A stretch of 64,000 nucleotides of DNA from Dermatophagoides farinae (lineage: Eukaryota; Arthropoda; Arachnida; Sarcoptiformes; Pyroglyphidae). Position 1 is the stretch's first letter; each line of letters begins with the position of its first letter. A program made the translations under genes and the position numbers. The DNA lies in NCBI RefSeq assembly GCF_024713945.1, contig NC_134677.1, positions 7,071,001 through 7,135,000 of the forward strand, written 5' to 3'. This document shows, piece after piece, positions 1,298-52,854 of this stretch. The notes under the pieces were generated by a model, which did not search any database, was not told where the DNA came from, and was given only the letters and a program-made list of their open reading frames with translations.

Positions 1298-3665
1298 ATG
1301 AATTGGTTTCAATCATTATCAGATTATGGTACAAATGTTGATCATTCAGCCAATACGACAACAAAGATAGTGGAAACATCAAATAAATTAAAAGATTCAT
1401 CATCATCATCATCGACAACAACATCAACATCGAATGGTGTGATTGTACATGGAAAACAATCGCAGAATAATCATAAACAATTATTGGATCTAAGTAATAA
1501 ACGTACAAGAAGCAGTAATAATAGTATTAGTCATAATAGTAATGGCTATAGTAGTAGTAGCCTTTATAAATCATCAAATGATTATAATAATTCCGGCTAT
1601 CATACGGCTAGCGAAGATAATACAACAATAACATCATTGACTGAGAATACTGAATCAACTGGCTATAATTCTTCATCCGATGATCATGATGATGGTACGG
1701 ATCATCATGCAACTAATTCTGAATCGAATAATTCAAATGATGTAACATTAATCAAAACGCATAAAAAACACGGAAAAAAGAACATTACAATTAGCTATAC
1801 GTATGATGCATTCTTTATTAGTGATGGTCGATCAAGAAAACGTAATATTAATGGCATCAATAATGGTAGTAATGGTAATAGTGCTGGTAATAGTGTAGGA
1901 GGAGGAAATGCTGGCCATGGTAATGGAATTATTAGTGATAGTAGTGCTGGAAGTATTGATCCAAAAGAAAGGCAACGATATTCATGTACTGAATGTGGAA
2001 AACATTATGCAACATCATCGAATCTATCAAGACATAAGCAAACACATCGTAGTCCAGATTCACAATTGGCTAAAAAGTGCCCAACTTGTCATAAAGTTTA
2101 TGTTAGCATGCCAGCATTGGCTATGCATGTGGTATGTTAATAATAATAAATGTCATAATAAACTTGCTTGAATTCAAATCAATTAATCAACATATCATAT
2201 AAATAATAATAATAATCCTTTTTCATTTTTTTTTTCATTCATTCATCATTCACAAAAATCTAGCTAACTCATAATCTTAATCATAAATGTGAAGAATGTG
2301 GAAAAGCTTTCTCACGTCCATGGCTATTACAAGTAATCAAATTGTCAAATTGATTTATATCACTTTAATTGAATATATAACAGCAACAATTTGATATTCA
2401 TAATTTGAAATTTTTTTTTTGTTTTGATTCTTTTCACTACATTTCTTCGTAGGGTCATATGCGTTCACACACTGGAGAAAAACCATTTGGATGTGCTCAT
2501 TGTGGTAAAGCATTTGCAGATCGCTCTAATCTTAGGTAAGTAACTTTGGTATTTGTATGAATAGAAAAAAAAACTTTGAATGAATTTAATTTTAAATGGA
2601 AAAAGTTTTTCATAAACGAGAATCGAGAAAAAAAAATTGTAATGGAAAACTAGAATGATTAATAATAATAATGTCTCAGCGTGTTTCAAAGTTTTTTTTT
2701 CTGTGTAAATATGAATAAACAGTTTTTATATTTTGAATAGAAATGGAATAGTTTGAATGAAAAATGTTTTTTTTTTACTCATTCGCAAACAATGATGACA
2801 ATAACAACGACAACAACAACAACGACAACAACAATTTGAGAACCTTGAACCCTCCGATATAGATGAATTTGACTTTTATGGCTAAAAAATTTTATATTAG
2901 AATCACTATATATGTTGTTGTTGTAGTTGTTGTTGTTTTTATGCATTGAAAAAGAATTCTAATTGAAAATATTGACTGACATTGGTTTTTTTTCTCTTGT
3001 TTTTTTTTCTTGCCTATTCTATTTTCATTCCCTTTCACACATCCCTCTTTATAAATATTCCATGTAAATATATTGTTGGAATCGCATATGATGGTTATGA
3101 ATTTACTACTCATAGAGCTCATATGCAAACACATAGTGCATTCAAACATTTTCGTTGCGAACGATGTAATAAGTCTTTTGCTCTTAAATCATATCTCAAC
3201 AAGCATTACGAATCATCATGTTTTAAGGATGCCAACAACAACAACAACAATAATAACAGTAATAATAATAGCAAACAACAAACGACAGAACAATCAATGG
3301 AAACGAATGGTAATAATTGTGAAACATTGGAGAATCATTGTTCTCCCACTTCATCATCATCATCATCATCACCGTCATCATTTTCAACATCGACATCATT
3401 TTCAAAATTGAACAATAATAACAAGCAATCAACAACAACGACAACAGCTAGTCATCAAATGAATAATAGTAATAGTGAAAAACAACAACAAAAACAAAAA
3501 CAAGAACCGGAAAAACATCAACAACCACAACAACGGCCAAGCTATACGACAACAACGAATCCTTATACAAATAGTATTACAATAACACGATCTAAGGTGT
3601 TACAACAGAATGGTGGTGGCAGCAGTAATATCATCATTTCAAATAAACGAAAATCAATCGAATAA
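1298..3665 (+). CDS. scrt: Scratch-family C2H2 zinc-finger transcription factor (5' end probably missing)
   Basis: Nuclear transcriptional repressor of the Snail/Scratch superfamily; members bind E-box DNA and act mainly in neural precursors. Exons by frame and GT-AG: up to 2131, 2264-2332, 2453-2535 and 3116-3665; about 511 residues if read from the ATG at 1298. Residues 169-182 hold the Scratch signature (DAFFISDGRSRK). Five C2H2 fingers follow from about residue 228: a CTECGKHYATSSNLSRH finger, a CPTCHKVYVSMPALAMH finger, [28 protein letters not shown], and last FALKSYLNKHYESSC, which is diagnostic of Scratch rather than Snail. A Ser/Thr/Asn-rich linker precedes the fingers, and an Asn/Ser/Gln-rich tail follows them. 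The family's N-terminal SNAG motif is absent. A strong acceptor at 1321-1322 suggests the true first exon lies further left, so 1298 is only the first available ATG. Confidence 0.9.
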
Positions 3666-6600: not shown

Positions 6601-6933
6601 ATGATAATGATGAACAAAAACTAATTTGCATAACTTGTGTTTTTTTTTCTTTTGTTCTGGCATTTGCAGAATCCGCGTATATATATATATGAATGCATCA
6701 TTAGATAAATTACAATTAAAAACTTTGGTTTGCTTGGTAGTATATATATGGTGCTTGCTTACTTCTTGCTTGTCTGATTCGATTTACATTTTCAACATTG
6801 CAACATTATTGATTATTATTATATGTGCTTGTAAGAATCGGGTTAGTTTCCGGTCGAAATATCTTTGTATGTGTGTGTGTGTATAATGTGAAAAAAGATT
6901 GCATAAATTTCTTATTTCTTTGTCATTTCATTC

Positions 6934-6961
6934 TTTTTTTTTTTTTTTTTTTTTTTTTTTT
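6934..6961 (+). repeat. Poly(T) tract, about 28 bp
   Basis: An uninterrupted run of T. Similar runs occur near 8430-8453 and 28690-28715. No target-site duplication or body of a retrotransposed element was seen next to it, so I treat it as simple sequence. Confidence 0.8.
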
Positions 6962-8585: not shown

Positions 8586-8629
8586 TTAATGTGGCAAATT
8601 TTCAATCAACCAAACATTTTGTCATCAAA
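8586..8629 (+). repeat. 44-bp direct repeat, copy 1
   Basis: This 44-bp sequence, starting TTAATGTGGCAAATTTTCAA, recurs without mismatch at 9363-9406. The two copies are 777 bp apart, start to start. Flanks outside the 44 bp differ at both ends. Confidence 0.9.
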
Positions 8630-13004: not shown

Positions 13005-16000
13005 ATGTCGTTGAATTCACGATCATACAGAGATGTTCGACAAGCTTTTATCAATTTTTTCAAAGATAAATATGAACATCTTTTTGTTCGAAGTTCATCA
13101 GTCATTCCTCATGAAGATCCAACACTTTTGTTTGCCAATGCTGGCATGAATCAGGTATTCTATTTGTTTGTTTTCTATTATATCATATCTAAAATTCTTT
13201 GTTTTTAAAAGTTCAAACCAATTTTTCTAGGGACAGTTGATCCAAACAGCGACATGTCCAAGTACAAGAGAGTGGTTAATAGCCAAAAATGTATTCGTGC
13301 TGGTGGTAAACACAACGATTTAGATGATGTCGGAAAAGATTCTTACCATCATACGTTTTTCGAAATGCTTGGAAATTGGTCGTTTGGTGATTTTTTCAAA
13401 CGAGAAATTTGTCATTGGTCTTTTGAATTATTGACCAAAGTTTATGGCCTTGAAAAAGATCGGATTTATGTTACCTATTTTGGAGGCAACAAAGCAGCTA
13501 ATTTGGAACCTGATGAAGAAGCTCGAAAAATATGGTCAGAAATTGGCATTGATCTTGAAAAGATTCTTCCGTTCGATATGAAAGATAATTTCTGGGAAAT
13601 GGGCGAAACCGGCCCATGTGGACCTTGTTCAGAAATCCATTATGATCGAATTGGTGGCCGTAATGCAGCTGCATTAGTTAACATGGACAATCCGAATGTA
13701 ATTGAAATCTGGAATCTCGTGTTTATTCAATTCAATCGTGAAAATGATGGTTTATTAGTGCCGTTACCCAAAAAACATGTAGATACTGGTATGGGCTTTG
13801 AAAGAATTGTATCGGTCATTCAGAACAAAACTTCAAACTATGACACGGATATCTTCGAACCTCTGTTTAAAGCCATCCAGGAAAATACAGGCGCTCCAAA
13901 TTATACCGGAAAACTTGGAGACGATGATACTAACGGTATTGATATGGCATATCGTGTAGTGGCTGATCACGTTCGTACATTGACAATCGCTCTTTCTGAT
14001 GGTGGACGGCCGGATAATGTTGGTCGAGGATACGTACTAAGACGAATTTTACGTCGAGCTGTTCGTTACATTGAAAAGCTTGGTGGAAAGCCAGGTGCAT
14101 TTGGATCGTTGGTACCTGTCGTCGTACAAACTTTAGGTGATTTTTTTCCTGAGCTCAACAAAGATCCACAATTGGTCATGGACATCATCAATGAAGAAGA
14201 GTTGCAATTTTTGAAGACTTTGTCGCGAGGTAAACGATTGTTAAAAACTGCCATTGAAAAATTGGAAGGCAGTAAGATCTTACCTGGGGATATTGCATGG
14301 AAATTGTATGATACCTATGGATTCCCTATAGATCTTACCCGATTGATGGTCGAAGAGCATGGCTTATGCGTTGATATGGAAGGATTCGAAAAAGCCAAAG
14401 CTCAAGCTCAATTAATATCACAGGCAAAAATATCTCAATTAGACACAAAAGTTGAACTAGATGTCCATGCTATTTCTGAACTTCGTGATCAACTTAAAAT
14501 TCCCGTAACCAATGATTTGCCCAAGTACAATTACAATTCTTTAACTGATAAAAAAGATAGTGTTTATCGTTTTGAAAGCTGCCAAGGAAAAGTTTTGGCC
14601 ATTAGAAAAGAAAAATCATTTGTTCAAGAAGTTTCTGATACTGATTTGATTGGCATCATTTTAGATTCGACCAATTTTTATGCAGAAGCCGGTGGCCAAG
14701 AACATGATACGGGTTATATGATCAAGGAAAATGATGATAATAATGTTGAAATTGAATTCAAAGTGGTTCAAGTAAAATCATTTGGTGGTTATGTTGTACA
14801 TATTGGATATTTGATGCAAGAATCTTCTGGACAAAGTAAACTTCTTGTTAATGATGTACTTCGACTAGAAATTGATCAGGTTTGTCATTTTATGAATTAT
14901 TAACTAAATATATCATCATACAGAATTTTTTTTTATTATAGGAAAGAAGAAAATTAATTATGAATAATCATACCGGTACTCATGTCTTGAATTATGCCCT
15001 AAGATCTGTTCTCAAAGAGACTGATCAAAAAGGATCGCTCGTAGCTGCTGATAAACTTCGATTCGATTTTACCAACAAAGTTAGTTATATTTTTGAAAAA
15101 CGTAATTTATATTAATAATGAGATTTTTTTTCTTTCACCAGTCTGCAATGACAAGTGTTCAAGTAAAACAAGCTGAAAGTATTGCACGAGAAATGATTGA
15201 CAAGAATGAAATTGTATATGCAAAAGAATCTCCACTTTCAATGGCCAAAGCTGTGAAAGGATTGCGTGCTGTTTTTGATGAAACTTATCCGGATCCAGTA
15301 CGTGTAGTTTCAATTGGCGTTCCTGTAGATGACCTATTACAAGATCCATCCAGTCCAGCTGGTATGAATACTTCGATCGAATTTTGTGGTGGTACTCATT
15401 TGAAACGAAGTGGACATATTGGAGATTTCGTTATAACCAGTGAAGAAGCGATTGCCAAGGGAATCAGAAGAATAGTCTGTGTTACAGGTCCTGAAGCTAC
15501 CCGATCAATAAACAAGTTGGCCGAGCTTGAAAAACTTGCTTTCGAATTGGGAATTTATATCAATGCTAACCAATCAAAATTTTCTACTGAATTAAAAAAT
15601 ATGGCCAAAAAAGTCGTAGATTTGCAGCAAAAAGTCTCTGCATCGGATATATCTTGCTGGAAAAAAGAAGAACTCCGTAATAAGTTGAACCAATTGAAGA
15701 AAAAACTAGATGATTATGAACGTTCACTAAAAGCTTCACAAGCAAACGAAGTTGTTAATGTAGCAAAACAATTAGCCACCGACAATCCGAATTCAAAGTA
15801 CATGGTCAATTCGTTGAATGCTGGCTCCAATGCCAAGGCCCTCGATCAGGCAGTGAAAGCTGCTCGAGCTATTAATCCGGATCTTGCTTTGCTATTTTTT
15901 AGCATAGATTCGGATAACAATAAAATTATCTGTCTTTCTAATGTATCAAAAGAAACAGCTCAAAAAGGATTGACTGCCAATGAATGGGTTCAGAATATAA

Positions 16001-16128
16001 CGACTGTTATCCAAGGAAAAGGTGGCGGCAAACAGGAATCAGCTCAAGCTATCGGAAACAACATTGGATCATTGGATGAAGCTATTAAATTGTCTAATGA
16101 ATTTGCTCGCCTAAAATTAGGAGATTAA
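13005..16128 (+). CDS. AlaRS: Alanyl-tRNA synthetase, cytoplasmic type
   Basis: Class II synthetase that attaches alanine to tRNA-Ala and clears mischarged Ser/Gly. Four exons: 13005-13154, 13212-14879, 14942-15079 and 15142-16128, giving 980 residues; animal cytoplasmic enzymes are about 968. The N-terminal catalytic core is nearly canonical, with NAGMNQFKP across the first splice, [17 protein letters not shown] and [10 protein letters not shown]. The editing domain has the zinc/water-activating His616-x3-His620 (HTGTH) and Cys734-x3-His738 (CGGTH). A C-terminal C-Ala domain with a GKGGG stretch ends the protein. The start ATG at 13005 gives [15 protein letters not shown], with no mitochondrial presequence. 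Palindromes sit just upstream, and the sorting nexin gene follows on the same strand after 400 bp. Confidence 0.98.
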
Positions 16129-16528
16129 TATTTCTTAGAAAAAAAATTTTATCTACAATTTTTGTTACTATTCTATTTTCTATTAATAAATTCAATTAAA
16201 AATCGAACCGAAATAATATAAAAATGTGAAATTGAACTGTTAGTGGGGACTGTAACTACTAACATCGTATAAAATCAGCAACAGATTGTTTGGAAATAAT
16301 TATGTTGTGCAATTTTGTTTACTGCGTTTGTTACATTTTTCTCGCATCAATAAACAATTTGTGACAACATATAATTTATCCAATTAATTATAATCAAATT
16401 ATTATTGCGGAGTTGGATTTCTTAGACGTTTTTGGTTACAATTATGTTGATCATCGATCATTTCTTCATCTGCGATTCATCACATTATCGATGAAAAAAA
16501 AATTAAATTTATTTCAAAACATTCAACA
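16129..16528 (+). other. AlaRS 3' UTR and sorting-nexin promoter interval
   Basis: A 400-bp non-coding gap between two genes on the same strand. A polyadenylation-type AATAAA lies near 16184-16190. I saw no TATA box before the sorting nexin ATG. Confidence 0.5.
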
Positions 16529-30652: not shown

Positions 30653-31878
<1,226 letters not shown>

Positions 31879-36301: not shown

Positions 36302-36814
36302 TTTGTGCTCTAGATTTTAATTTCAACAAATAATAATAAATGAATATAAATTCCGTAAAAAAAATAATTTTTCGAACCTTTTAAATTTACAAGAGATGAA
36401 TATTATATTGTGAAAATACTAAATGATGTGATGAGAAGGTGATGAACAAATTAAAATAATAGGGAATCAGCGAGTGCAATCGTGCTTTATCTTTTTGATG
36501 ATCACGCATTGAATGGTTGCATAAGATCGAAATAAGATTTTTTTTTATCTAATCTACCAGGATTGTGATGTCAAAAATGTGGAAAAAATAATTTGGCTCG
36601 CGTTGTTTTACATTTCTCTCCTTCTTCAATGAACGTAGCAAATCAAGTACATTTGTGACCTTAAAAATGCACTCCTTTTTATATAAAAAAAAATTATGCA
36701 ATGTGACAGCCAATAACAATCAGAAATGATGAGCGAAACTATCGATAGACTATCGATTCTGTAAAACATATTTGGAATTCGTTCGGGATTAATTCTCATG
36801 TCAAAAAATTTTTC
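36302..36814. promoter_or_regulatory. Bidirectional promoter between slowmo and fuzzy
   Basis: 513 bp between two divergent start codons. It has TATCGATA at 36740-36747 and a near-copy TATCGATT at 36751-36758, echoing the OTUD6B/eIF2-beta promoter. No TATA box is evident near either gene. Confidence 0.65.
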
Positions 36815-38023
36815 ATGATGTTTTCCTTACAATTGATGGCCTTCAGCATCGATATTGGTTTGCCTTTGTTTATCCGACGATCTGATTTCAACAATGAAAC
36901 CATCAATAGTGATTTCCAATTAAATTCATCTACAGTTTTCTATGGTTTGAATCAATTTTCACGACTAAATGATTGTCTCTTGAAATATGCTGAGTCTAAA
37001 GGTAATCGAATTAAAATCAAATGGCATTCAAAGGGCAAAGTATTGCTGATTATTCTTTGTCAGGAAGAATATTTACTACGCGAAAAACATCTTGACCGTT
37101 TTCTAGTCCTAATTATAAATGCTATTCAGATGACATGTGGACCTGATGTATTTTTTATCGAAGATTTTGACAAACAAAAACGTGATCTCAAATTTGCTCA
37201 TCATCTATTAGATTGCTTAGTAAATCTCTTTGTATCAACCAATGTTGATAGAATCAATGTGATAGCTCATTCAGTTAATTATGAACCGATTGATCGATCA
37301 AAATCGATCAATTCATTTTTGTCTTTTCTTAATCGACTAGAATCGATACAATATTGGGCTCTATTTGTTCAAGAAAAATTAACATTTGCTAGTAAAGAAT
37401 GGTGGTCAACACTAGTTTCCGATCATCATACTTATTCTTGTTTAATCTGTTATCTGATTAACTCTTTTACCGATACGGTATTAGAAAAAGGAATGGAAAA
37501 AATTACCATTTTTCTCCCCTATGAAAATAATGTTATTCCACAAAATTTGACAATCATTCCATTGGCAAAACATCTACGTGTTTGTTTAATTAGTTCCAAA
37601 AATTCTAACCTTAATTATCTAACATCAGAAATTCCGGCCATCAATGACTCAACAGAACCATCATCTATTCTCAATTCATCATCGTTATTGAATGGCGATA
37701 ATGATAAAGCAATTTCAGCATTCATCATATTCAACACTAAACATCGAATTCATTCTATATATAATCCTACAATAGTACAAAATTATCTAGATGAAATAAT
37801 TGTATTTTGTAATTGTGATTTTAATTCTGAAAATGAACAAGATTCTATCATTGCTAACGACCATTTAATTATGTGCAAGATCAGCAATAAACATTTTATT
37901 CTATGTACTTTATTCACATCAATCAATCAACAACAATTATCATTGCAAAAATTGAAAAAATTAACAAAAAATTTAGCCTTTAATCTTTTGAATTTGAATA
38001 AAAATAAATCAATTTGGCCATGA
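36815..38023 (+). CDS. fy: Fuzzy homolog, planar cell polarity and ciliogenesis effector (CPLANE3)
   Basis: Fuzzy works with Inturned in the CPLANE complex, which acts downstream of Frizzled in planar polarity and as a Rab-activating and ciliogenesis factor. One exon of 402 residues; human FUZ is 418. Family features in order: an N-terminal longin-like start with GLPLFIRRS, FYGLNQFSRLNDCLLKYAES, the hydrophobic strand GKVLLIILCQEEYLLREKHL, then FAHHLLDCLV, and in the centre ASKEWWSTL, which matches the conserved WW of FUZ, followed by KITIFLPYEN. The C-terminal third has a Ser/Asn-rich loop, then a third longin-like segment. The ATG at 36815 is followed by further Mets at 36818 and 36836; the longest is chosen. 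Overall identity is low, so the call rests on order and spacing of motifs. Confidence 0.8.
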   Translation: MMFSLQLMAFSIDIGLPLFIRRSDFNNETINSDFQLNSSTVFYGLNQFSRLNDCLLKYAESKGNRIKIKWHSKGKVLLIILCQEEYLLREKHLDRFLVLIINAIQMTCGPDVFFIEDFDKQKRDLKFAHHLLDCLVNLFVSTNVDRINVIAHSVNYEPIDRSKSINSFLSFLNRLESIQYWALFVQEKLTFASKEWWSTLVSDHHTYSCLICYLINSFTDTVLEKGMEKITIFLPYENNVIPQNLTIIPLAKHLRVCLISSKNSNLNYLTSEIPAINDSTEPSSILNSSSLLNGDNDKAISAFIIFNTKHRIHSIYNPTIVQNYLDEIIVFCNCDFNSENEQDSIIANDHLIMCKISNKHFILCTLFTSINQQQLSLQKLKKLTKNLAFNLLNLNKNKSIWP

Positions 38024-41000
38024 AATTTTTTTTTTTTTTTTGAATAAAATATTTTTCCACCACTAGATGTCATTACAAGAACGAAATTTACAAACTGTTG
38101 CGCATTCAAAAAGAAATGTGTTTTTTTTACGAGTTTTTTTCATTTGATTTTCAAATAATGAAATGACAAAAAAAAATCGTGGTTGAAGTTTTTTTTCTAT
38201 ATTCTTGAAATTTTTTTTTTTAGTTGCTAAAGCAGGTGTACGACTGAAAAAAAAATTCATTGCTATATAATGTAATGACAGATAACATTGGTAATTAATG
38301 ACTAAAGAGAAAGAAGAAAAAAAATGATGACCAGTGTACCATCAATTATGGATTGGTAGTATCTAATGATGATGATGATGATAATGATAATCATCATCAT
38401 CAAAAACCATTCGCGTGTCATCGAAATTCGAACCTAAAATGATGATGACATTGGCATTTTTTAAATTATTAGCTAAACACTATCAAGCTTGAATCAATCG
38501 AATACCAATTGGATTGATCCAACAATAAAAAAAATGAATACACGTGTTAATTTGATTGTTGTTCATTGTCGTTGATGATTATGATGATGAGCAGCTTGTC
38601 AATGTCTTATATTCACAGTTAGTCAAACAGTTTTTCCAGCCCAATGATCATACCTAGATAGAATCACTATTATTTTATAATCATTATTATCATCATCAAA
38701 ATTAACTTTAAACTTTCCATATGTTCCATGAACGGTTCATCATCATCATCATCATAACCAACGGTATATTTGCATGTAGCAAGCGTATTTTGTCCATATG
38801 TCTTGAATTATTGAAGTAAAAAAAAAATTAATAAAAATAAGATAACCACCTACTAACATGTTGCTGCTACTATGGTAACATGATAATTTGATAGTCATTG
38901 AGGTGATCATCAGCATCATCATGGCCAAAGACCATAGTTTTTCTTTGGTACGGTTTTACAAACTATCCATCCAGTCAACCAGACACCCCTAGACATAAAC
39001 CTGTTTGATCAAGCGTTCAATCATGGTGATGATAATGATGATGGTAATGATTTTGAGAAAATCACACATTCATGAGTGTTTTTTTTTCTTTGGTGAAGAA
39101 TCACCAATTTTCGGTTCATGATAATGAACCATGAATATTTCGTATCTTTTTTTTCAAGGCATATGCCGTCAATTAAGAACACATCAAACACACATTTGGC
39201 GGCCGATTACATTTGATCCTGAAACATTTGCTGTATGTCTGAAGATTTTTTTTTTGTTGAATATTTACCGACTGCGTCAACATCTCGATCAATCGATGTG
39301 ATCAGACCAAAAAAAAGAGAGGGGAAAAAATTATCGGCTAAACCAAATAATCAGGACTAACGAAGCAATCAAAAAAAAAAAATCTGTTTGATGATGATTT
39401 TGACCTAACCAAACCTTATCGCTGACCGACAGGCGATTAAACGGAAAAAGCTTTAATATATAATAATATGAATTGGTTACCTTTTCGATTTTATATGATC
39501 AATATATCATGAATGAAGCGAATTCGATTTGAGGAAATGAGAGGGGGGAAATCATTCATAATAATCAAAAGATGACGAGTGCAGCAGCTTGCTTGTTTTC
39601 TGGATCATCATTATTCCCAATGAAATGGCTCGTGTCGCTAACCTTTATGGTTTATTCTTTGGATTTGATGTGCATGTGTATGTTGTTGATTAAACTAAGG
39701 CTAGGTCCTTCTGGTTTGTTTAGCAAAAAAAAAAATCCATAGAGTACACACACACACACACATAAACACGCAGAGAATAGGATATGATTGGATGTGGATA
39801 AGCATTTTGGAACCTAATGAACGTCCATACTATTCAAACACCATAGAGGCAAATCATGATGAAAGAAAAGAAAACGGACACTAAAAATTTTTGGGTGCAA
39901 CAATTACACATTATAAAAAAAACTCCACGGTAAATATAATAATAATAATAATAACGAGGAAGAAATGAAATATGCAACAGCAACAGCAGGCAGGTGCGGT
40001 CCAAATTTTGAACCATTTTGAATATTATATTTAGTGAATAACCTAACAAACACTCGCTTATGGCCCGTGTTCGCTCTTATGAATATAATACATATGACCG
40101 ACAACGTTTGTTTTCTATTGATGGCACGCGACTGTTGATGATGATGGCCAACAGCATTTGCAGTTTTGAGTTCTTATTAGTATATCCATTATCATCATCA
40201 TGTGTGCACGCGTTAAATTTTTCTTTTTTTTTTTTTTGGTTGTTGTTATTGGTTTGTTGTTGTGTTCACCTTTCACCATTTGGTTTGGTACACGACAACC
40301 GCCATCAGCCGTCAATAGCAGCAGGTTCTCGATTCGGTTATATCTGAGCATAAAGCAAAAAGAAAATGAGAGAGAGAGAGGTCATACCAGTTTCGAAAAA
40401 ATCAAACAACAACAACAACAATAATAATAATAACGAAAAATTTTCTTCGCTATATCCATACAATCTGGATCAATAAAGTCATACTAACTAATGGAACTCT
40501 AGATTTCGCTTTCATTTTTGCAAGCAAACATAATTGTCCATCATCATCATCATCATCATCAATGATCAGACATGAATTTAGCTAAAATGTCGGTTACAAT
40601 TTTTTTTCCACCCATAGCGATTTTCGATAAATGTGAAACTCATTTATAGAAACTACTAAATATATCATATTCAACATTTAAAATCTAAATCACTTACACT
40701 GACCATATCTTTCAAATCAGACTGTCAGACAAACAAAAAAAAAATAGAAAAAACAACGGATTGGATGACATCATTGGATCATGACTATGACCATGGTATC
40801 GCGCGTATGGTCTTTTTTCAAACTTTTCATATCCATCCGTCCATGTTTCATTTCAGATCGTGACCGAGGCACGCGTCCATTTTTTTTCCTCTTCTTTCCT
40901 TCTTCTAAAAACATCTGCCTTTGACACGTGCAATATGTGTGACCCTTAGGGTCATTGTTTGACCTGAAATGAAATGAACGAAATCGTAAGGAAATGGACG

Positions 41001-44000
41001 ACCCAATATGTGACCGGACTGATACAGACGACGATATACAGGCACACATAGATATATAGCTAAAATGTCTAATGTGTGTAATGGAAATTTAAGGGTTTTT
41101 TTCTGAACTTTTTTGCTTCTTACATTATCCAGTGGCAATAACATTAGTCCATTTATTTCTGGTTCTTGTTTTATCGGTTGACTTTTGACTTGAATGGTCA
41201 CTTGTTCCATATGTATCCGGTTGAAAGTTTCTAATTTCAGTCTGTCGGCCTATTATGATGATACTATTTTCATTTCTAAATTCATTTTTGCTGATTCTGC
41301 TAACAAAAACAAAGAACTTTATCAGACAAATGTCAAGTAATGCACCTTCAAACGAACATAGTATAACCAAAACAAAAAGAAAAGAAAAAATCTAACCGAC
41401 ATTGAACCAAACTTAACCAGCCGATGAATGTATACGATTTGTTTGATCTGGTTGAATGGCCATATATTTGCCGTTGGTCGGTGTAGCACACGAATCATAT
41501 TTAATTCACACGCAACATTATGATGAAAGTTCCTTTCATTGGTATATGCGTGTGTGTGTGTGTGTGTCATCATTCCTAACGGTTTATAACGGTTTTCTCT
41601 CTGTTCTCGATTTAGTCAACCAATTGAATATGTTTAACATCACACACATGATTCACACGGTCCAAATTTTTTTCCCACCAATCCAAATAACAATCAAAAA
41701 TTAAAACTAGGAATCTGGGAACTGGTGTGTGCTGGTAATCCAAAAAAAAAATGATCCAAATGGTTTGAATAAAAATGTTAATGATTCAATACGACGCATT
41801 GCTCTTGTTCAATTCAATTCAGGTCGATTTGTATGCGCCTGTTGAATTAATGGTTTCACACACTCACACACACACACACTGGAACTAATTCAATGTTTCA
41901 TCTATAAATTTCACACACACACACACACACACACAATCATAAACACACTGCTGGTGCTGGTCATTATGTTTCACATACGAAAGAATATTAAAAAAAACAA
42001 GAATCCCATTAAATTCCAAACACAATCCAGGCAAGGACAATTCCCACACCCTATCATAAAGTTATATGGATATAATATTTCACACACAATCATTATTTGG
42101 AACAATTTGCCAATGAACATTTTCAGACAATTTTCACATCCAATCACCATATGGACATCATTATTATCATCATCATCATGGATCATCTTTTTTTTCTTTT
42201 TTGTTGCATGAATAAATTAAAAACATCAGTTATATAGTTTATATATGGTTTTTTTCTCATTGAACTCTGAATTCAAATTAATTTGGACCAATCACACCTG
42301 GTGATATTGTTGGAATTTTCACTTTCATCATTTATATATGAACATTATGATTATTTTTTTTCAAATAAATCAATGAATGTATTAGGATCAACGGCCGCAA
42401 ATATGTTGCACGCTTTTTTTCTCTCTTTCTCTTGACAAGTCATATACTTACATTGGGAAAAAAAACCTGCCCTGGTTTTTTTTGGCACCGTTCACCTGGC
42501 CAAGTTCGCATGTGATCCAATCGAATAGAGCAGAAAAAAATATATAAATCGATAAAGTTGAATAAATGAAAATAATATGAACGCGTGCAAAATGTCTGTC
42601 GATTTTTTTTCTGTTTTGTTTTCAAATCATGAATAAAGCATTTATATAAAGGTATATAAGGTAAAAATCAGCACGTGCCCAATTCAGTCTTATTATTATT
42701 ATTATTTTTATTGAAAGACAGTGAATGTTTTCATTAATACAGAGACAGAGAGAAAGGAAACACACATGGCTAAAACGGGACATTTTCATATCCCGGATAC
42801 CTGTAGACTATTTTTCGTTTGTTTGTTTCTTTCATTATTCTTATTGAAACAAATCGAACATATGGAACGATGGAACACAAGGTGTTTTTCACAAATATAT
42901 TTTTTTTTTATAAATGTACGTAGGTAATTTCAAACAAAAAAAAATTGGGGAACCACCCCTCCTTCAACTTGTGAACCAAAGAGTGGTGATGATTCATTCA
43001 TTCTTATATTGAACATATGACTTGTGAAGCAGGTAAAAAAAAGAATGTTATCCTGATATGGTTGAGACCTAGGCTAAATATTGTTTTTATTCACTGTGTG
43101 TGTGTGTGTATGTATGAATTTTTCATTTCAGACACAGTTGTCTTGAGGCCATACATGCCACATGGCAAGTGTCTTAAAGCGGTACGTGTTTTTGGCACGC
43201 GTGCAGCTGCTTGGCTAGCTCTGCTATAGTTTGGTGAATGAATGGCCAATTTACTATTATCTGAATGTATATTTTTTTGACCGAGAAAAAACGATAGACT
43301 TTGTGTGGCACGAGCGCTGCACACATGTGACGCGAAATTTTTCTTTTTCTTTTTTCATCTTCGATGATCTGGCTGATTTCTCTTTAGGGTTGTTGTTGTT
43401 GTTGTTTTTTGGATGGCTTTTTTGGAATGAAATCTGTTGATTGTGGATTTTGTTTTTGTGTGTGTGTGTGTCTTGAATAATGGTGTTTGTCGTATCTCCC
43501 GTTAATAGCTTTCATGATTGTATGAATGTAAGTGTGTGTATGCTATCGACATTTTTTTTCACAATTTATGCCTTCGGGTTTTTGCAAATAAACTACCACG
43601 ACGACGAAAAGAGACGATTTATTCAAATAGCTAGTCAAATTGGCAAACAGATTGGCAGCAATGAGGTGCTTTCGACGGCCATTGGATGATGACGATGATG
43701 ATGATGATGATGGTGATGATGATCATCATCGTGGCCATTCTTGGAACATAAGGGGCCAACAAAGAATGTATTTCGAACCACCTGTCACACAAAAATTGGC
43801 CTGGTCAAACAGAAAAAAAAATCTGCCAGGCTATTTTGTGGTGAAAAAAAATTTCTTTTTTTTTTGACTGATGATGATGACGATGATGATGATTGTACAC
43901 TTGCCATTTGCTTTGGCGAAAATCTGATTTTTTTTCTTTCTTTTTTTTGATGTCCATTTTATAGCCTAAAACGAGAAAAAAATCTGGACATCACACAAGT

Positions 44001-45119
44001 GTTATTCATTGAATCAAATTTTTTTTTCTTTTACGAAAAATATTCATTATATGTGCACACGCACATAGTTTCACATTCAATTGATCGTCTTTGTCGATAA
44101 TGAATTTTTTTTTGTATTTATTAAATAAAAATAACGAAGAAACCGACCGGATATTGTTCATTGTTTGTTGTTCCGGAATTTAAAAAGAATTGGCAAGTGT
44201 TTATCTCAATAATAATAATAACAAACAAACAAAAAAACAAACAAAACAAAGGATGTTTCATCTTAAATTGGTTACAATAACCGCTTGTTTTGTTTTATTA
44301 ATTTTTCTAGGTTTGTTCAGTTTTCATTTGTGCTATTGTTGTTGTTGTTGATTTGCAAATTGATTTTTTCACGCTACTATGATTAGCTAATTGATTTTTT
44401 TGAAACGTGAAAGGCCAAAAAAAATCGATAGATTTTGGTTATTCGTTAATTCATTCTAAGCTAATGATGCTAAAAAAGGGTGTATTCATCAATACGTATT
44501 GGTCATTATATATGATGAAAATATATTTCAAAAACTAAAGAAAAAAACAAACAAACAAAAATTGTCATTTAAACCACCTGTTAGATCCATCCATGATGAT
44601 GACGATGATGATGATGATGAGTTGATGGCAATCATTTCGGATCAGATTCATTAGTTACAATCATCATCATCATCATCAAACGTCTTAATTTAGTGTCGAC
44701 AATTTAGTGCCAAAACAACAACAACGACCACGACATTGATGAAGATAATGATGACATCCAGAACTAAAAAAAAAACATGAAGCAATCTGCCATGATTGTA
44801 ATTTTTTTTTCTTCTATTTTTCCTTCTTCTTGGTTTGTTCGTATGTTGGATGTGGAATGTTTGGGATTGAGCATTGAAAAATTACATCCCATCACCACCA
44901 TCACCACACACACACACACACCGACATACTATTGCACTTGATTTTCGGAAAACTTTTTTTTTATTTTCTCATTCTGACCATCGTTTGAGCATTTGGTTTT
45001 TTTTATAACAAAAAAAATATATATATAAAAAACAATTTTCATCCTGAAAAACAAAACTACCCGATTGTTGAGGTCAACAACATATTACAACAACATTATG
45101 ATCGAAAGAAAAAAAACAT

Positions 45120-45151
<32 letters not shown>

Positions 45152-47442
45152 TATCATCAAAGGAAATATGTCCGAGTTTGATGATGATGATGATGATGAC
45201 GACGAGGATAATATATTAGTTCCTTGGAAAAAAGATCGCTACGATGCTATGCGTAGCAAGATTATAATAATAATAACAACAACAACGAAAACAAAAAAAA
45301 TTCATTTGATTTTTGTTTGTTCTCGATCCGTCTAAGGATGAAATTTGTGTGTGTGGTGTGTGGTTTGGTTTGGTTTGATTTGGTGTTCAAGAGAATAAAT
45401 GACCCGACCATAACATTTTCACAATGATCACAACAATATAATAGCACAGGTTAGAAAATGCGTTGTAATTTAAATGAATCAATCAATTTTCCATATATTC
45501 GCAGAACTCATTGGGAATATTCCCTTCCAATTTTTTTTCGAGTATAGTATTTTTTTATGAAAGTCTCACATAGGATTTCACTTTATTTTTTTTTTTTTGA
45601 CCTCTTGTTCAACCTTCAGTGAAAAAAAAATTCTATAAAACAGGTGAACCACCACCACCACCACCTTCACCAGGTAAACATTGTGATTGAATTAAAAATC
45701 AACTTTTTTTTGGTTTATTTGACCATTTTTTTTCCTATGAACAATAATAAGAAAAGAAAAATGAATGAAATGGTTTTTTTTCCTAAATACAAAAGATTTG
45801 TGAAGAACACATTGAAAAAATTTTGAATTCACTTGAAACGAGAACAAAAAATTTTCTTTTTTTTACCTTCGTTCTTCATTCTGTCCTTTTTTTTTTTTGT
45901 TGGTGACCGAAAATATTATTATTATTATAAACCTGCTTCTGTCAATGACAAGTTGCAGCTCCAGTGGAATAAAGAAAGAAGGAGAAAAGAAAAAGAAAAG
46001 GGAAATGGATCCGGCCGTCTAATACAGGTCATATATATTTTTTTGTACGATATGTGTGTGTTTGTGTGAGAAAGGTAAAAATCAACAATGTAAAAAACCC
46101 AGTTCAAGCTACTGAAACTGAATTTTTAAGAAATTTTTTTTTTTTTTTTTGAAAGAATTGAAAAAGCCAGCTCAACTGTCACGGTCCCCAATATTTGGAA
46201 CATTGATGATGATGGTGATGAAGGAAGACTATCCGATAAAAATTGGTGAGCAGGTGTGTCTAGGTGTATTGGGAGATTACATTTTAGCAATATATGGTTT
46301 ATAAAGCAAAACAATATCGGGACTTTACTAAGATTTTTCCCTTTTTTTCACTGCTCCCCTTATCTTTTTAGCTATTACAGCTACTGAATAGTGACAATGA
46401 ACGATTTTTTTTCTCTAGCTATACCGACGATATAGCTTCCTTCTGGACCGAGCCTTTTTCATGTAATTTCACACACACACACACAGAGAGACTACACAAA
46501 ATGTATTCAATCATTTGACATGTAAGAATACACAAAAGATTTTTTTTTTAACCTGAACCTGAATTAAATAAGGACTTACAGGTTACTCACATTTAAATAT
46601 AAACATTGAATCGACCGACAATTTAGCCAAGACTTCATTGTCAATTGATAATCATAGTTGATGAAAATGTTTGAAGAAAAAAAAACATTCCTATATATGG
46701 TCCAATGTCTCCTTTTTGTTCCTTTACCTGTGTATTTGGTTCGCAAACTTTTGACAAAAATTTGATTTTTTTTCTCTCTCTCTCTCTGTCTAATTGATCA
46801 ACTTACTGTTGTTGTTATCGTGATTTATAAATGTACAAGTTTATCTAAAGAAAAAAAAGAACCAAGTCTTTTTCCGCTCTTTGGATCGAAATTCGGCCAG
46901 TGACCGAGACAGTGCGGTGTTCAGATCTTTATTCTTCGGTTTTTTTCTTTTCTGCACCTTACTAAAATCTTCGATAATATAGTACAACTTGTTTCATCCG
47001 GTGAAACAAGGATGGAACAAAGGGGACAGTACTACTATTGAATTGGTTTCAGTCAATTGGTTATTATTATTATTGAGTTACAATCAATATCAATTTTGAC
47101 CACCGGAACTTGGTTGATTGGAGTATAAATCTGTTTTTTTTTCTTGAACAGTAACCACTATCTATTTAGAGTCAATAGCCGACACATATGAACAAAATGA
47201 GAATCTTTCTCTCATCATTGATGATCATCATCACTCACTTACTACCCCTATTTTGAAGGTTAAACGAGACCAACAAGACCCACACACACACACACACACA
47301 CAGAGAGACACCAAAGCCCCAGAAAAAAAACACAACTGGCAATATTTCGTGAGTGATTCTTCCTGTCTGGTAATATGGTTTGTTTAGGAAAATAATATAT
47401 AACAAGATGATGATGATGACCGTATGTGGTTTATAACATTTT

Positions 47443-47478
<36 letters not shown>

Positions 47479-48425
47479 CTCGTACACTTATAATCATCTA
47501 ATTGAGATTTCGTATACCATATACACACACACACCAAACACAATTTACCAATTCAATGATCATAGACTCGAACAAACATGAAAAAAAACGGAAATGATCA
47601 GATTAACTAACTGGCTCAATAATGGTGATGATTTGATGATGACGATGATGGTGATGAGCTGCCATTTGCACATGATATTTTTTTTTTTTACCTGCAACGG
47701 ATTTGGGTTTGGTCTATTATATTTGTATATATTCACAACTATAGTAACAACATGAACAACAACAACAACAACAATTATTATTATTTGAGGGAAATTAGAT
47801 TTTTTTTTCTCATTCTTCTTATTTTTTTTTATTGAGATTGTATATATGGTCAGGAAAGAAAAACGATTATTATAATAAGAATCCAATAACAATAACAGTG
47901 ACATTTGGATGTTTGAAAAAAAAATTTTCGATGGATGCATACTTTGAATATTTTTTTTATTATTATTATTTCATTGACAATGAAAAAAAAAAAATTCGAA
48001 CCATTATTGACACTGTTCGTTGGAATGTCGTTTTTATTAGTGTTCCATTATCACAATGTTGGAAGGCTGCTAACATTGTGACATTCCATTGAGCTGTTGC
48101 TGCTGCTACTGCTATTGGTGTATCGTATTATCGTTGATGAAATTTTAAAACCTTCATAGTTAGTGTGTTCTACTCTCCATCTTTAAATTGTTTTTTTTTC
48201 CATCATCATCATCATCTTTTGGTGTTTGGCCAATTCAATTGTGTTATGATTGTAAATACAAATTTTTTTTTTCACTTGAAAAAAAGCAGGTAGCAAATGA
48301 TTTTTAGGTCCGTTGAAATTTTATGTGCATTGTTGAACTTTGTCTTTTGTAAATTTTTTTTTTAAGACAGTGTTTGGTATGCAGGTATTACATGTGACAG
48401 ATTTTTAAGAGATGAGGAGGATACA

Positions 48426-48457
<32 letters not shown>

Positions 48458-51400
48458 TCTGACATCATCATATGAAATGGAATTTGAAGGCAAGTGTCGT
48501 ACAAGCCAAACGAAAAAAAAACGATCCAACTATGAAGAAACAACACAAAAGATATTGTCAAGACAATGGATGAGAAATCGTTTCATATCATTTGTACTGG
48601 ATATTTATGCATACCAAACACCCAGTAGCCACCAGTAGTTTCAGTGATCGAAGTAATTTTTTTTTTTTTTTTTAGTTTCGGGATAAAAAAACCAGCAGGA
48701 GAGATTTTTTTTTTCTTTTTCGTTTTCTTTTACATTCATTGAGATCAACCGATGATATTATTGCGCGACAGGTTGTGTACACGTTATGGTGAATTATTCG
48801 TTATAATTTGGAAGGAGAAAATATAATGAAACCATATAAACCACATTAACCGACAAACTGATTTCATTCTTTTTCAATAATGACACATCTTGAATTTGAA
48901 TAATTTTTTTTGTGTATAGTTCGAAAGTTCGAAGGCCTAGAAAAAAAACACCTTCGCTTTTTTAGTCCATTTTTGATTGATGATGATGATTAACAACGTA
49001 TCACCCTGATGAAATGAAATCAGATGAAAACAAGTTGTTAACGATCATTTTTGGTCATAAAAAAAATCTTGGATCGTTGTTGGTTTGAATTACTATGAAC
49101 TATCAACTGAATATATGGCCAAATATCTTTGATGGACGAAACAAAACAAAAAAAAAAAAAATCTAACCAATGATAAATTTCACACGATCCATAAAGTCAC
49201 CTTCATGGATATACCACTGTTTCTATTTCTCTATCTTCTTCATATAATCGGCTTCATATAAATTTCCATTACTTTTTCATCATTTGATCGATTGATGATC
49301 TTGACAAAGTTTTTCTTTCATTTTTTTTTCTTTTTCTTCTTCATATGGAACATTGTTTGCACTCGATGTATTCATATTGGTTGTTGATGATGGTGGATGA
49401 CCTTTATTCGACTTTAAATGTCACATATTTTTATTATTATTATTATTGGTCTTTTGATTTGGGTTTTTGTATACCTGAGGACGGTCAGGTCACCAGACAA
49501 TAATCAGTTCAAAAAAAAAATAGAAACCATAGCTTTATTTCAACAGAAACAATATATTTGAATCTTCAATAATACTTGACAACGAACTGTGAACCCAATT
49601 GATAGAAATAACCGCCATTCTCATCATCAACATCGTCAATGGTCGATCGTCACCTTTTTTTGAAGATCTACGGCTAACCATTGTTGACATAAATTTGATT
49701 GAATACATCTCATCCTTTCTGGTATCCCATCATCTATCGAATTTGATTTTTTCGATTCATTCATTTTCTCTCTATATGATGATCATATTGTTTGATTTGA
49801 ACGTACATCAATGGCTTCTTGGCTTTTTATCTTTCACTAAGGATGTTAATTTGCATTTAATTTTTTTTCTTGCTTGACTTTAACCATCACATCATTTTAT
49901 ATTCATATACACACACACACCATATGGCTATTGTTATTTAGTTCGTATCCCTTCGAGCCCATTTTCATATGAATTGAATTGAATTGAATTTTGGCATTGG
50001 TATTTTTTATTATGTATCGTCATCATCGATCCATTATTATTATTAACTTCCAGTATCCATCCCAGTATTTTGATCATCCATCTACTATCCATCCAAAAGT
50101 TGATCACCATCGATACGTTAGTAAATGTTCATTGTTATTCTAATCAAATCAAAGTAAAAAAAAATTCTGAAAGCGTTAAATAACAAAACCCGAACAATCC
50201 TTCTTCTCCTTATAACAATGAATAATAATAACTCAAACAAACAAAATAGATCAATCAATCAAAATCTGGTGCTGCTTCTTTTTTTCCTCAATTCATTTGA
50301 CATTTATTTGACGTTTATTTGTCTCTTTTTTGTATTTATATTGATTTGATGATGACTTTTATTTGACCTATGATGATTATGATGATGAGCATCACGATCA
50401 CGATTTCATTGGCAATGATAATCATAGATATTGCGATCATGGAAGATCAAATCGATTAGTGTCTATAGTTGAATTCATCTTCGGATCGGATGTTCCAGTT
50501 TTTTTTTCGTTATCTGAACTAGAGAAAAAATCTAAAAGCTAAGCAAAACAAGTGTTTTTGTCCAAGTGTCCTATGACCTCTGTTCTTTTTTTTCGTTTCT
50601 TTTTTTTCTAGCCTTTTAAACTTTGAATTGATTGAAAAATCTGTTGTTGAGCAATAGCAACAGGAAGATAGACTACACACATATCACAGAAAGAAAACTT
50701 GGTGAGGTCCCCAAGTTTTTATTTCTTATTCACTGCAGTAGTCCAGTCAATAAAGTTATTTGAAGAAAAGAAACTTTTTTCTTTTATTTCGATCAATCGG
50801 AATCTAGCAAAAAAAAGCGAAATCTAGCTCGTTTTTTTTGGGACTTTTCACTGTTTTCTGCCTTAGGGGACATGGTAGCGGTCGTTGTCTTCGTCACTGT
50901 CAATTCATCATCATAGTCTAACCAAACAAAAGCACCATCATGTTCCAAGACTCTTGATGCCTAATATCAATGCTTATAACCATAGATTTACTAAACATAT
51001 GCTAACATGGTATGTATATTGTATTTGTCATTGTAATGTATAAGAACCATCCCTGTTCCCACCCATCCGATTGCATCCGATGTATCACCTGCGTTTATTA
51101 TGTTGTTGATAATCGGACACAAATACAAATGTTGTACAGTGTGAATGTTTGTATGTGTGTGTAGTATGGTGGGCAGGCAGACACCTCTTGCATCGTGCTA
51201 CGCTTGCTATTTTTTGACGAAAAGACTACAATTGTATCTGTGTGTGTGTCTCGTGGGACCAATAAATTCAGCGAATGCTAGTACCGTCCATTTCATTCAC
51301 AAGTCTGACATCGACAATCATTCAACAAGCTGAGAGAGGTCACAATCCTGTTGATTATCGAATTTTATAATTCGTAATTTTTTTTCCACACAAAAACCAA

Positions 51401-51479
51401 ACACGAGCCATATGTCATCATCGTTATTTTAGTAATCGAACATTCTATTCTTAATCGTTCAATAATTTAAGAAAAAAAA
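38024..51479. other. 13.4-kb gene desert upstream of snail
   Basis: No recognisable gene on either strand. The sequence is rich in GAT/ATC, CA/TG and T tracts. By eye there are eight CAGGTG/CACCTG E-boxes between 38,233 and 51,091, and a nuclear-receptor-type palindrome at 40940-40954. The position before a developmental repressor suggests enhancers. Confidence 0.5.
40940..40954. promoter_or_regulatory. Everted nuclear-receptor half-site palindrome
   Basis: TGACCCTTAGGGTCA is a perfect 15-bp palindrome made of two half-sites with a 3-base spacer. A further half-site, TGACCT, follows at 40960-40965. This is the sort of site bound by nuclear receptors, but chance occurrence cannot be excluded. 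Confidence 0.45.
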
Positions 51480-52854
51480 ATGCCTAAAGCTTTTCTTCTC
51501 AAGAAAAAATCTTCAACCATTCTGAATGGACCAATTCGATCCATTTCACCAAAATTATTTTCACCATCATCATCATCTGGAATAGGATCACCACATTCAT
51601 CTCATATGAGTACAGAATCAATGTCGCCACGAAATGATCAAGAAAATCATTTTGATCAATCATCATCGTTAGTTAAATATTCATCACCATTGAATGAGAA
51701 TCAAGGTATGTAAAGAATATAAATTTTCTTATAGTTCGATGTAGTTACCTAAATTACCTTCAAATCATTAGGTCTAGATTTAAGCATTAAAAGCCTGCTA
51801 AAAGAATCGAATAGTTCATCATCAACATTCGTTTCGAGCTATCCGTACCCGGCAAAATTCGCTAAAATTGCCGATTTTTTACGCACGAATTTGAATGAAT
51901 CATCCAATAAACAACAACAACAACAACAGCCGGTGCCTTTGGTCACACCCGTCAACACCCCAATCACTGAAGCTATTGATTATAGCGTGATTGATACAAC
52001 TAAACCACAATCATCATTAAAACCAATCAACTATTCAAGAACGGAAGAAAAAGAATCTAATCATCATTATCAACGAATGCCACCATACAGTATTAATTGG
52101 AGTGAACATTTTTCTGTCAATCGTGTAATTGTTTCACCAAATAGCCAACGATCTGATGATTCTGGACGCGAAAGTATACATTCAGCTGATGATTTAGATA
52201 TGAAAATTGATGTTGATAATAATAATTCTGATTCAAAAATCAACAACAATGGTCATAAAAAATCCGATCGTTATCATTGCCCTGATTGCAATAAAAGTTA
52301 TTCCACACAAAGCGGTCTGGCTAAACATCAAGAATTTCTTTGTACAAGTCAAGTGAAAAAATCATTTAGCTGTAAACATTGCGAAAAAGTTTATGTATCA
52401 TTAGGAGCATTGAAAATGCATATCCGTACACATACGTTACCATGTAAATGTAAACTTTGTGGCAAAGCATTCTCTCGTCCATGGTTATTACAAGGTATAT
52501 ATTTTAATTAATACTTTGTTTTATCAATCGAAACTAACTGTTTTTTTTTTTTTTGTTAAATTCATTCAATTAGGTCATATTCGTACACATACTGGAGAGA
52601 AACCATTTGCATGTCAATTTTGTAATCGTGCATTTGCCGATCGTTCTAATCTTCGGGCTCATCTTCAAACACATTCAGTGGTAAAAAAATATAGCTGCAA
52701 AACATGTAGCCGAACATTTTCTCGTATGTCATTATTATTGAAACATGAGGATAATGGTTGCAATGGTATTAATCGATCCGTCGTTCATCATCATCATCAT
52801 CATCAATCGACAAATTCAAATCAAACCATGACAATGGTTCCAATTCAAGTTTGA
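51480..52854 (+). CDS. sna: Snail-family C2H2 zinc-finger repressor with SNAG domain
   Basis: Nuclear repressor that binds CAGGTG E-boxes and directs mesoderm formation, EMT or neuroblast behaviour. Exons: 51480-51705, 51772-52494 and 52574-52854; 409 residues. The first residues [10 protein letters not shown] form a complete SNAG co-repressor domain, which fixes the start. Across the first splice is [10 protein letters not shown] (about 76-85), close to the CtBP-binding consensus. Five C2H2 fingers run from about residue 243 to 380: [68 protein letters not shown], and last [19 protein letters not shown], which is diagnostic of Snail rather than Scratch. A short His run lies in the tail. Snail, escargot and worniu cannot be separated; mites may have one copy. 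Confidence 0.95.

Follow-up and report, generated by a model that had tools for sequence, protein, structure and literature searches.

Three linked Snail-superfamily genes in the mite

The Scratch and Snail genes in the window (the 64,000-nucleotide stretch of Dermatophagoides farinae DNA analysed here, on chromosome C1) belong to a group of three family members whose closeness is probably a remnant of a single ancient gene neighbourhood that dates back at least to the last ancestor shared by mite and human. ScratchB and Snail, placed on the same strand about 48 kb apart by the first-pass annotation, are indeed both on the + strand, each with an unbroken reading frame after splicing, at a distance of 47.8 kb (Table 1). 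A third gene, ScratchA, lies outside the window, 96 kb upstream on the - strand (C1:6972689-6973682). A single gene from each of the snail, scratchA and scratchB families falls within 151 kb, an interval with zero N.

Table 1. Features of the Scratch-Snail region, in window positions except where C1 is given
Feature	Position	Strand	Basis
ScratchB exon 1, SNAG (MPRSFLVKK)	C1:7069471-7069714 (window coordinate ~ -1529)	+	1.5 kb 5' of the window
ScratchB exon 2: SCRATCH motif, finger 1 and the larger part of finger 2	1323..2131	+	spliced frame open
ScratchB exon 3: last part of finger 2, finger 3 as far as SRPWLLQ	2264..2332	+	FSRPWLLQ match
ScratchB exon 4: remainder of finger 3, beginning of finger 4	2453..2535	+	spliced frame
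ScratchB exon 5: remainder of finger 4, finger 5 FALKSYLNKHYESSC, C-terminal tail	3116..3665	+	spliced frame
Alanyl-tRNA synthetase	13209..16125	+	Pfam tRNA-synt_2c 1.1e-192, tRNA_SAD, DHHA1
PX-domain protein, SNX20/21-like (by eye)	16451..17686	+	Pfam PX; PDB PX matches SGK3, SNX3, SNX16, others
OTU protease, OTUD6B-like (by eye)	20084..20896	-	Pfam OTU; best PDB match 'OTU domain-containing protein 2'
eIF2 beta (EIF2S2), by eye	21427..22554	+	Pfam eIF-5_eIF-2B in second stretch
Possible PDGF/VEGF-like growth factor (by eye)	24569..26061	-	translation; no Pfam match
Secretin-family GPCR	28973..30673	-	Pfam HRM, 7tm_2
Small Ras-like GTPase	31810..32634	+	Pfam Ras 1.1e-8 in second stretch; first stretch below cut-off
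Cyclophilin B/C	34724..35263	+	
PRELID3	35715..36265	-	Pfam PRELI; best PDB match PRELID3B
Fuzzy-like longin protein	36749..38020	+	Fuz_longin_1 E 0.002, below cut-off
Snail exon 1, SNAG motif MPKAFLLKK	51480..51705	+	spliced frame
Snail exon 2: GLDLS, fingers 1 to part of 3	51772..52494	+	spliced frame
Snail exon 3: remainder of finger 3, fingers 4-5	52574..52854	+	spliced frame

The spliced ScratchB protein has 584 residues, with SNAG and five C2H2 fingers (identified by eye), the last of which, FALKSYLNKHYESSC, contains FALKSYLNKH. Snail also has SNAG and five fingers, with FSRMSLL in the last. These last fingers, together with the SCRATCH motif DAFFISDGRSRK in ScratchB, tell the two families apart as the first-pass annotation had stated. 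Its start for Scratch at 1298 was corrected: the exon in question starts near 1323, and the SNAG exon precedes the window. ScratchA has SNAG and five fingers and lacks the SCRATCH motif. The codon pattern of FSRPWLLQ gave three exact matches genome-wide, one in each of ScratchA, ScratchB and Snail, and none when reversed. That of DAFFISDG, the first eight residues of the SCRATCH motif, gave a single exact match genome-wide, in ScratchB. As far as the searches show, these three genes would make up the whole Snail superfamily of the mite, and they are probably transcriptional repressors of known kinds. GLDLS in Snail, which we take to be a possible CtBP-binding motif, differs from the canonical form, and such a motif is not universal within the Snail family. 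In PDB searches with the zinc-finger proteins, generic C2H2 chains dominate; the best 60 of 211 and the best 60 of 253 matches included no family member other than SNAI1, whose chain 3w5k_B aligned to Snail at query residues 27-138 with 198 bits.

Finger comparisons, made with provisional reference sequences, bear on the origin of the three genes. ScratchB fingers are 87% identical to human SCRT1 and 81% to fly Scrt, with which ScratchB may group (tree support 0.60). ScratchA is 82% identical to Kahuli, the fly ScratchA (PMC8722224), and may group with it (tree support 0.95). Overall, identity of the mite fingers to human or fly members of their own family is 79-87%, versus 54-66% among themselves. 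A recent tandem duplication within the mite lineage would account for the single chromosome and the shared architecture, but these identities argue against it, as do the SCRATCH motif being in ScratchB only and the introns in finger 3, which are offset by one base and differ in phase between Snail and ScratchB and are absent from ScratchA. This origin is extremely improbable, and the lineage-specific duplication weighed by the first-pass annotation was rejected on the finger identities.

Genes between ScratchB and Snail

About 12 genes lie between ScratchB and Snail, which fits the 13 of the first-pass annotation. Nine have a Pfam match, counting the Fuzzy-like one that is itself below the cut-off, and three are by eye or uncertain (the PDGF/VEGF-like gene, a transmembrane protein at 18-19 kb and a Kazal-like ORF). 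The Pfam queries comprised a set of 30 ORFs and a set of 40, with three window stretches queried twice, and are a subset of all ORFs. To call these genes unrelated was too weak a description: the human counterparts of the EIF2S2, SNX21-, OTUD6B- and PRELID3B-like genes are on chromosomes 8 and 20, which also bear SNAI and SCRT genes.

The 13.5 kb 5' of Snail (38021..51479) held no convincing gene in the ORF lists, and none of nine ORFs there scored over the Pfam cut-off; genes with short exons are possible. Gene-poor flanks of 12.1 and 9.5 kb at ScratchB and of 13.5 and at least 11.1 kb at Snail, where mean spacing is 5.8 kb, are consistent with a genomic regulatory block, where the three regulators would be kept together by long-range enhancers scattered among bystander genes. 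Such functional retention is compatible with an ancient neighbourhood, but it is conjectural and we consider it doubtful: the ScratchA gaps are small (2.2 and 6.2 kb), and large intergenic spaces are common at regulatory genes anyway. Passive retention would be sufficient.

Gene neighbours in common with human SCRT1 and SNAI1

The ScratchA-ScratchB interval contains CPSF1 (745 bits, versus 47 for DDB1), DGAT1 (205 bits, versus 71 for SOAT1), an HSF, two C/EBP-type bZIPs (one checked against PDB, the other by eye) and an M24 peptidase that is probably the orthologue of PEPD. Since the genome has HSF domains at four sites and two of them outscore the block's copy, which an intron splits, the latter is a putative HSF1 orthologue. 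According to PMC5740759, the order at human 8q24.3 is HSF1-DGAT1-SCRT1-TMEM249-FBXL6-SLC52A2-ADCK5-CPSF1, which puts CPSF1, DGAT1 and HSF1 at most five genes from SCRT1. SNAI1, TMEM189/UBE2V1 and CEBPB are listed next to one another in PMC3635907, and CEBPG is close to PEPD (PMC3037298).

Gene order and spacing differ between the mite block and human. Human SNAI2 and SCRT1 are far apart on chromosome 8. With SNAI1 and SCRT2 on separate arms of chromosome 20 (PMC2688512), the human data thus show no snail-scratch proximity. These arms and the unconserved order raise the alternative that only the sharing of a chromosome is ancestral, closeness having arisen later by intrachromosomal shuffling and genome compaction; in a 62-Mb genome even loosely linked genes come to lie close. 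However, CPSF1, DGAT1 and HSF, which human SCRT1 also has nearby, point to retention that is local and more than chromosome-wide on the scratch side, C/EBP-type genes, which are near human SNAI1, are inside the ScratchA-ScratchB interval, and snail is reported to adjoin scratch in Trichoplax (PMC2688512). We therefore regard this alternative as conceivable though rather unlikely, and suggest that the proximity may itself be ancestral, beyond mere chromosome sharing.

A chromosome-scale prediction, set beforehand, that five human neighbours would be on mite C1 gave a weak outcome, coming true for two of the five (P = 0.16): BOP1 (best copy) and VPS28 are there, and GPAA1 (C3), CSE1L (C8) and PIGT (C5) are on other chromosomes.

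Chance estimates

Under random placement, and ignoring the look-elsewhere effect, a given pair falls within 49 kb with a probability of 0.16%, and three given genes fall within 151 kb in about 2 in 100,000 cases. Tight distance as the sole basis was rejected, one pair within 49 kb not being rare across many gene families. Three of the 20 published non-scratch genes around SCRT1 are among an assumed 25-35 mite neighbours, where about 0.05 are expected (P 1.6e-5 to 4.4e-5, uncorrected for the four HSF-domain genes).

Human counterparts of 11 of the 24 strictly assigned neighbours (MTSS-like, CPSF1, MTG2-like, DGAT1, TMEM67, PSMD7, CNOT1, NUDT21, SNX20/21, OTUD6B and EIF2S2) are on chromosomes 8, 16q or 20, with an uncorrected P of 1e-6 to 1e-5 for a chromosome set picked after the genes were seen and with positions and chromosome gene fractions partly taken from general background. 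The other 13 (ELYS, SEH1L, POP4, NGDN, EMC4, SNAP29, CTDP1, PHRF1, PEPD, QNG1, WDR4, PPIB/C and FUZ) are elsewhere. Excluded beforehand, as having no single human counterpart, were the two C/EBP-type genes, HSP70, the small GTPase, the PDGF/VEGF-like gene, the GPCR, a C2H2 gene at C1:7036-7041 kb, the Kazal-like ORF and unnamed ORFs. Five with a human paralogue elsewhere (HSF, RPRD1, PRELID3, AlaRS and SLC38) were also excluded; with these restored the count is 16 of 29. Names given by eye beyond the Pfam domain are SEH1, NGDN, SNAP29, PHRF1, WDR4, SNX20/21, OTUD6B, eIF2 beta, MTSS, MTG2, PEPD, PSMD7, CTDP1, SLC38 and the first C/EBP. Human positions were taken from the literature for CPSF1, DGAT1, HSF1, SCRT1, SNAI1, CEBPB, CEBPA/CEBPG/PEPD, EIF2S2, SNX21, OTUD6B, MTSS1, SLMO2, GTPBP5, C20orf77 and SEH1L, mostly from papers on chromosomes 8, 19 and 20 that could confirm and hardly contradict. 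The remaining positions and the chromosome gene fractions are general background values, and we take RPRD1B, PRELID3B and MTG2 to be C20orf77, SLMO2 and GTPBP5, respectively.

Unclassified Wnt genes, taken as a control for retained clusters, added little: they occupy two adjoining places on C2 and two places 111 kb apart on C5.

A probable retained ancient neighbourhood

The first-pass annotation had left retention and later re-association side by side. Retention is favoured because of the third family member and because human SCRT1 and SNAI1 have some of the same neighbours. That unlinked genes came together again in the mite lineage, by chance or rearrangement, agrees with three of five tested human neighbours being on other mite chromosomes and with the dispersal of the genes in arthropods surveyed in 2009, where the portion consulted reports no snail-scratch linkage (PMC2688512). 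Such a re-association would nevertheless have to gather three family members plus human neighbours of both SCRT1 and SNAI1, against odds of ~2e-5 under random placement for the three genes alone, and is very unlikely. A retained ancient neighbourhood fits best, and chance re-association and recent duplication fit poorly. Counting against retention are the two-of-five outcome, the shuffled order, the human SNAI1/SCRT2 arms and the 2009 survey. In Daphnia the four family members are spread over three scaffolds.

In the ancestral neighbourhood, snail and scratch genes would have been placed among C/EBP, CPSF1, DGAT1, HSF and other housekeeping genes. Order and strand may then have been shuffled, and genes inserted, by local inversions and short-range moves, the block staying unbroken in the compact 62-Mb mite genome. 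A stronger version, which we put forward as speculation and think improbable, is a little-broken bilaterian Snail/Scratch locus with its three founder families and original neighbours, held by shared long-range regulation, in which the superfamily's origin by tandem duplication could be read directly in an arthropod.

Across the animals, Snail and Scratch genes have roles in mesoderm, in cell migration and in neurons. An arthropod with three linked families among human SCRT1 and SNAI1 neighbours would provide a separate reference point for the ancestral locus, and suggests that the small genome of a mite has kept a neighbourhood lost in the arthropods surveyed in 2009. Assemblies of tick, horseshoe crab, amphioxus and mollusc allow the question to be tested directly.

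Comparison with known systems

In the survey sections consulted, the idea of a tandem-duplication origin was based on placozoan adjacency and on looser linkage in Branchiostoma and mammals (PMC2688512). Beyond these cases, the literature searched, including parts of PMC11371463 and PMC10726417 and with most subscription papers outside it, yielded no further snail-scratch linkage; the passages of PMC10726417 mention neither gene. Kerner et al. (2009, PMC2688512) interpret the adjacency in Trichoplax adhaerens as possibly a remnant of the tandem duplication that founded the superfamily; that pair is adjacent with one scratch gene, whereas the mite has three families within 151 kb, among some 40 other genes or ORFs. 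Branchiostoma has snail and scratch on the same scaffold, and Lottia has scratchA and scratchB on the same scaffold; both resemble the mite in linkage without adjacency and differ from it in that linkage of all three families is unreported for them in the text consulted (PMC2688512). Drosophila scrt-CG12605 and the Daphnia scratchB pairs (PMC2646280 and PMC2889900) are also linked arthropod Snail-superfamily genes, but they are scratchB duplicates, whereas the mite genes belong to different ancient families. Human 8q24.3 (HSF1-DGAT1-SCRT1-CPSF1; PMC5740759 and PMC2865462) and 20q13 (SNAI1-UBE2V1-CEBPB; PMC3635907 and PMC5386118) each have some neighbours in common with the mite block. In human, these are two separate blocks with scratchA lost and the order different, whereas in the mite there is one block that includes scratchA.

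Mite members of the Snail superfamily

Exon limits of the window genes ScratchB and Snail were read from the genomic sequence (62,435,336 bases, 22 contigs). ScratchB has five exons, four inside the window, and encodes after splicing a protein of 584 residues with five fingers and one SCRATCH motif; Snail has three exons and its product has a SNAG motif (MPKAFLLKK) and likewise five fingers. The first-pass annotation's placement of Scratch and Snail on one strand ~48 kb apart was borne out: both lie on the + strand, separated by 47,815 bases. The window covers positions 7,071,001-7,135,000 of contig C1, which is 9.17 Mb long.

Whole-genome searches with each finger domain revealed one more close family member, ScratchA, upstream of the window. 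It matched the Scratch finger query at 4.2e-39, has the final finger FALKSYLYKHEESSC and lacks the SCRATCH motif. Outside the three genes, the best matches were 1.9e-19 (41% identity, C5) in one finger-domain search and 6.6e-16 (37% identity, C3) in the other; some short stretches elsewhere in the genome were more similar (up to 69% over 31 residues), in the manner of zinc-finger linkers. The exact codon pattern of FSRPWLLQ, a search blind to members with a change or intron inside the motif, matched three times genome-wide, once each in ScratchA, ScratchB and Snail; the reversed pattern gave no genome-wide match and the SCRATCH codon pattern one. C1:6968001-7135000 contains no N. The FSRPWLLQ signature is absent from additional C2H2 zinc-finger genes near the block, located on C1 at 7.036-7.041, 7.227 and 7.253 Mb.

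The superfamily comprises snail, scratchA and scratchB branches, with the SCRATCH motif exclusive to scratchB (Kerner et al. 2009, PMC2688512, excerpt), and the fly scratchA gene is Kahuli (PMC8722224, excerpt). Against manually entered reference sequences, identities were 79-82% for mite Snail to Snail members, 81-87% for ScratchB to ScratchB members and 82% for ScratchA to Kahuli; the mite genes share 54-66% with one another. Motif content and identities therefore suggest one gene per superfamily branch within 151,165 bases. Each product carries SNAG plus five fingers and, like the proteins of the known families, is presumably a repressor; we claim no novelty for the proteins themselves.

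Finger-3 introns of ScratchB (window 2332/2453, phase 0) and Snail (52494/52574, phase 1) lie one base apart and may reflect sliding or independent gain. ScratchA has no intron there. Given this pattern, the introns argue neither for nor against common origin.

Features of the ScratchA-to-Snail block (positions in the window unless prefixed C1)
Feature	Position	Strand	Description
ScratchA	C1:6972689-6973682	-	three exons, SNAG MPRSFLITNK, five fingers
IMD-domain (MTSS-like) gene			far side of ScratchA
ScratchA-ScratchB interval			two C/EBP-type bZIPs, ELYS, SEH1-like, POP4, CPSF1, MTG2-like, HSP70, NGDN-like, EMC4, DGAT1, SNAP29-like, meckelin (TMEM67), FCP1-like (CTDP1), PSMD7-like, CNOT1, PHD/RING protein, PEPD-like, C2H2 gene, queuosine salvage protein, HSF, WD40 protein, amino-acid transporter, CREPT/RPRD1
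Two NUDT21-like (CFIm25) genes	C1:7055506-7057351		tandem, same interval; first Pfam NUDIX_2, second by eye
ScratchB exon 1	C1:7069471-7069714	+	before window start; SNAG MPRSFLVKK
ScratchB exon	1323-2131	+	
ScratchB exon	2264-2332	+	
ScratchB exon	2453-2535	+	
ScratchB exon	3116-3665	+	
Window neighbours			alanyl-tRNA synthetase, SNX20/21-like PX protein, OTUD6B-like, eIF2 beta, possible PDGF/VEGF-like factor, secretin-family receptor, small GTPase, cyclophilin B/C, PRELID3, Fuzzy-like protein
Kazal-like short ORF	22721-22936	-	between eIF2 beta and PDGF/VEGF-like gene, by eye
Snail exon 1	51480-51705	+	
Snail exon 2	51772-52494	+	
Snail exon 3	52574-52854	+	

Neighbours shared with human loci

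NUDT21 is a single gene in human, and insects usually have one HSF gene. In the mite, HSF-type DNA-binding domains occur at four places (C1:7045080, C2:6249861, C10:2898925, C10:3168379), so orthology of the block HSF (closest to HSF4 and HSF1, 80.5 and 79.0 bits; HSF2 74.8) is less clear than that of CPSF1 and DGAT1, which is clear from PDB match scores. Excerpted sources place human HSF1, DGAT1 and SCRT1 at 8q24.3 (PMC2865462) and give the hg38 order downstream of HSF1 as DGAT1, SCRT1, TMEM249, FBXL6, SLC52A2, ADCK5, CPSF1, SLC39A4, VPS28, TONSL (PMC5740759). Among 20 published non-scratch genes around SCRT1, three are mite neighbours (25-35 assumed), against ~0.05 expected. On the snail side, excerpts list SNAI1 next to TMEM189/UBE2V1 and CEBPB (PMC3635907; same interval, PMC5386118). 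A further excerpt places CEBPG near PEPD in the 19q13 interval (PMC3037298); the two mite C/EBP-type genes and PEPD-like gene lie within 53 kb.

Human counterparts of 11 of 24 strictly assigned neighbours lie on 8, 16q or 20, a set picked after the genes were seen, and 13 elsewhere; with five looser assignments the count is 16/29. Human positions of OTUD6B, MTSS1, EIF2S2, SNX21, SLMO2, GTPBP5 and C20orf77 are from PMC2851616 (excerpt); others are presumed.

Five further human neighbours were predicted beforehand to lie on C1. BOP1 (best copy, 4.53 Mb) and VPS28 (0.23 Mb) do; GPAA1 (C3), CSE1L (C8) and PIGT (C5) do not. This score of two in five falls short of significance (P = 0.16), so whole-chromosome retention is not demonstrated and the claim is restricted to the local block. 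A weaker BOP1 match at C14:146663-147409 (202 vs 342 bits) may stem from contamination or represent a diverged second gene.

Discussion

The finding is larger than the first-pass annotation's: one gene per superfamily branch, plus shared human neighbours. That annotation left open a surviving ancestral arrangement or later re-association; the shared neighbours point to retention, and together with the presence of all three branches make it the better option. Local rearrangements would shuffle gene order and strand without dispersing the block; ScratchA lies on the opposite strand to ScratchB and Snail. In a compact genome, passive retention would suffice. Regulatory constraint could possibly hold the block together, because gene-poor stretches (1.6 to 2.3 times mean gene spacing) adjoin ScratchB and Snail, though this is weak evidence. 

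Wnt genes occupy two places ~6 kb apart (C2:1241724-1254004) and two 111 kb apart (C5:517799-633053), possibly remnants of an ancient Wnt cluster.

The mite block probably adds a further example of ancient linkage, a phenomenon already known. Some observations weigh against retention. Human gene order is not collinear with the mite block, and because SNAI1 and SCRT2 lie on separate arms of chromosome 20 in the excerpted source, human data back the scratch-side and snail-side neighbourhoods only separately. That these were once one neighbourhood is suggested by Trichoplax, where snail and scratch are adjacent, by Branchiostoma, and by the C/EBP-type genes inside the mite Scratch interval. Also against retention, the excerpt of Kerner et al. 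reports no snail-scratch linkage in the arthropods surveyed, and in Daphnia the four family members are spread over scaffolds 23, 39 and 110 (PMC2889900, excerpt).
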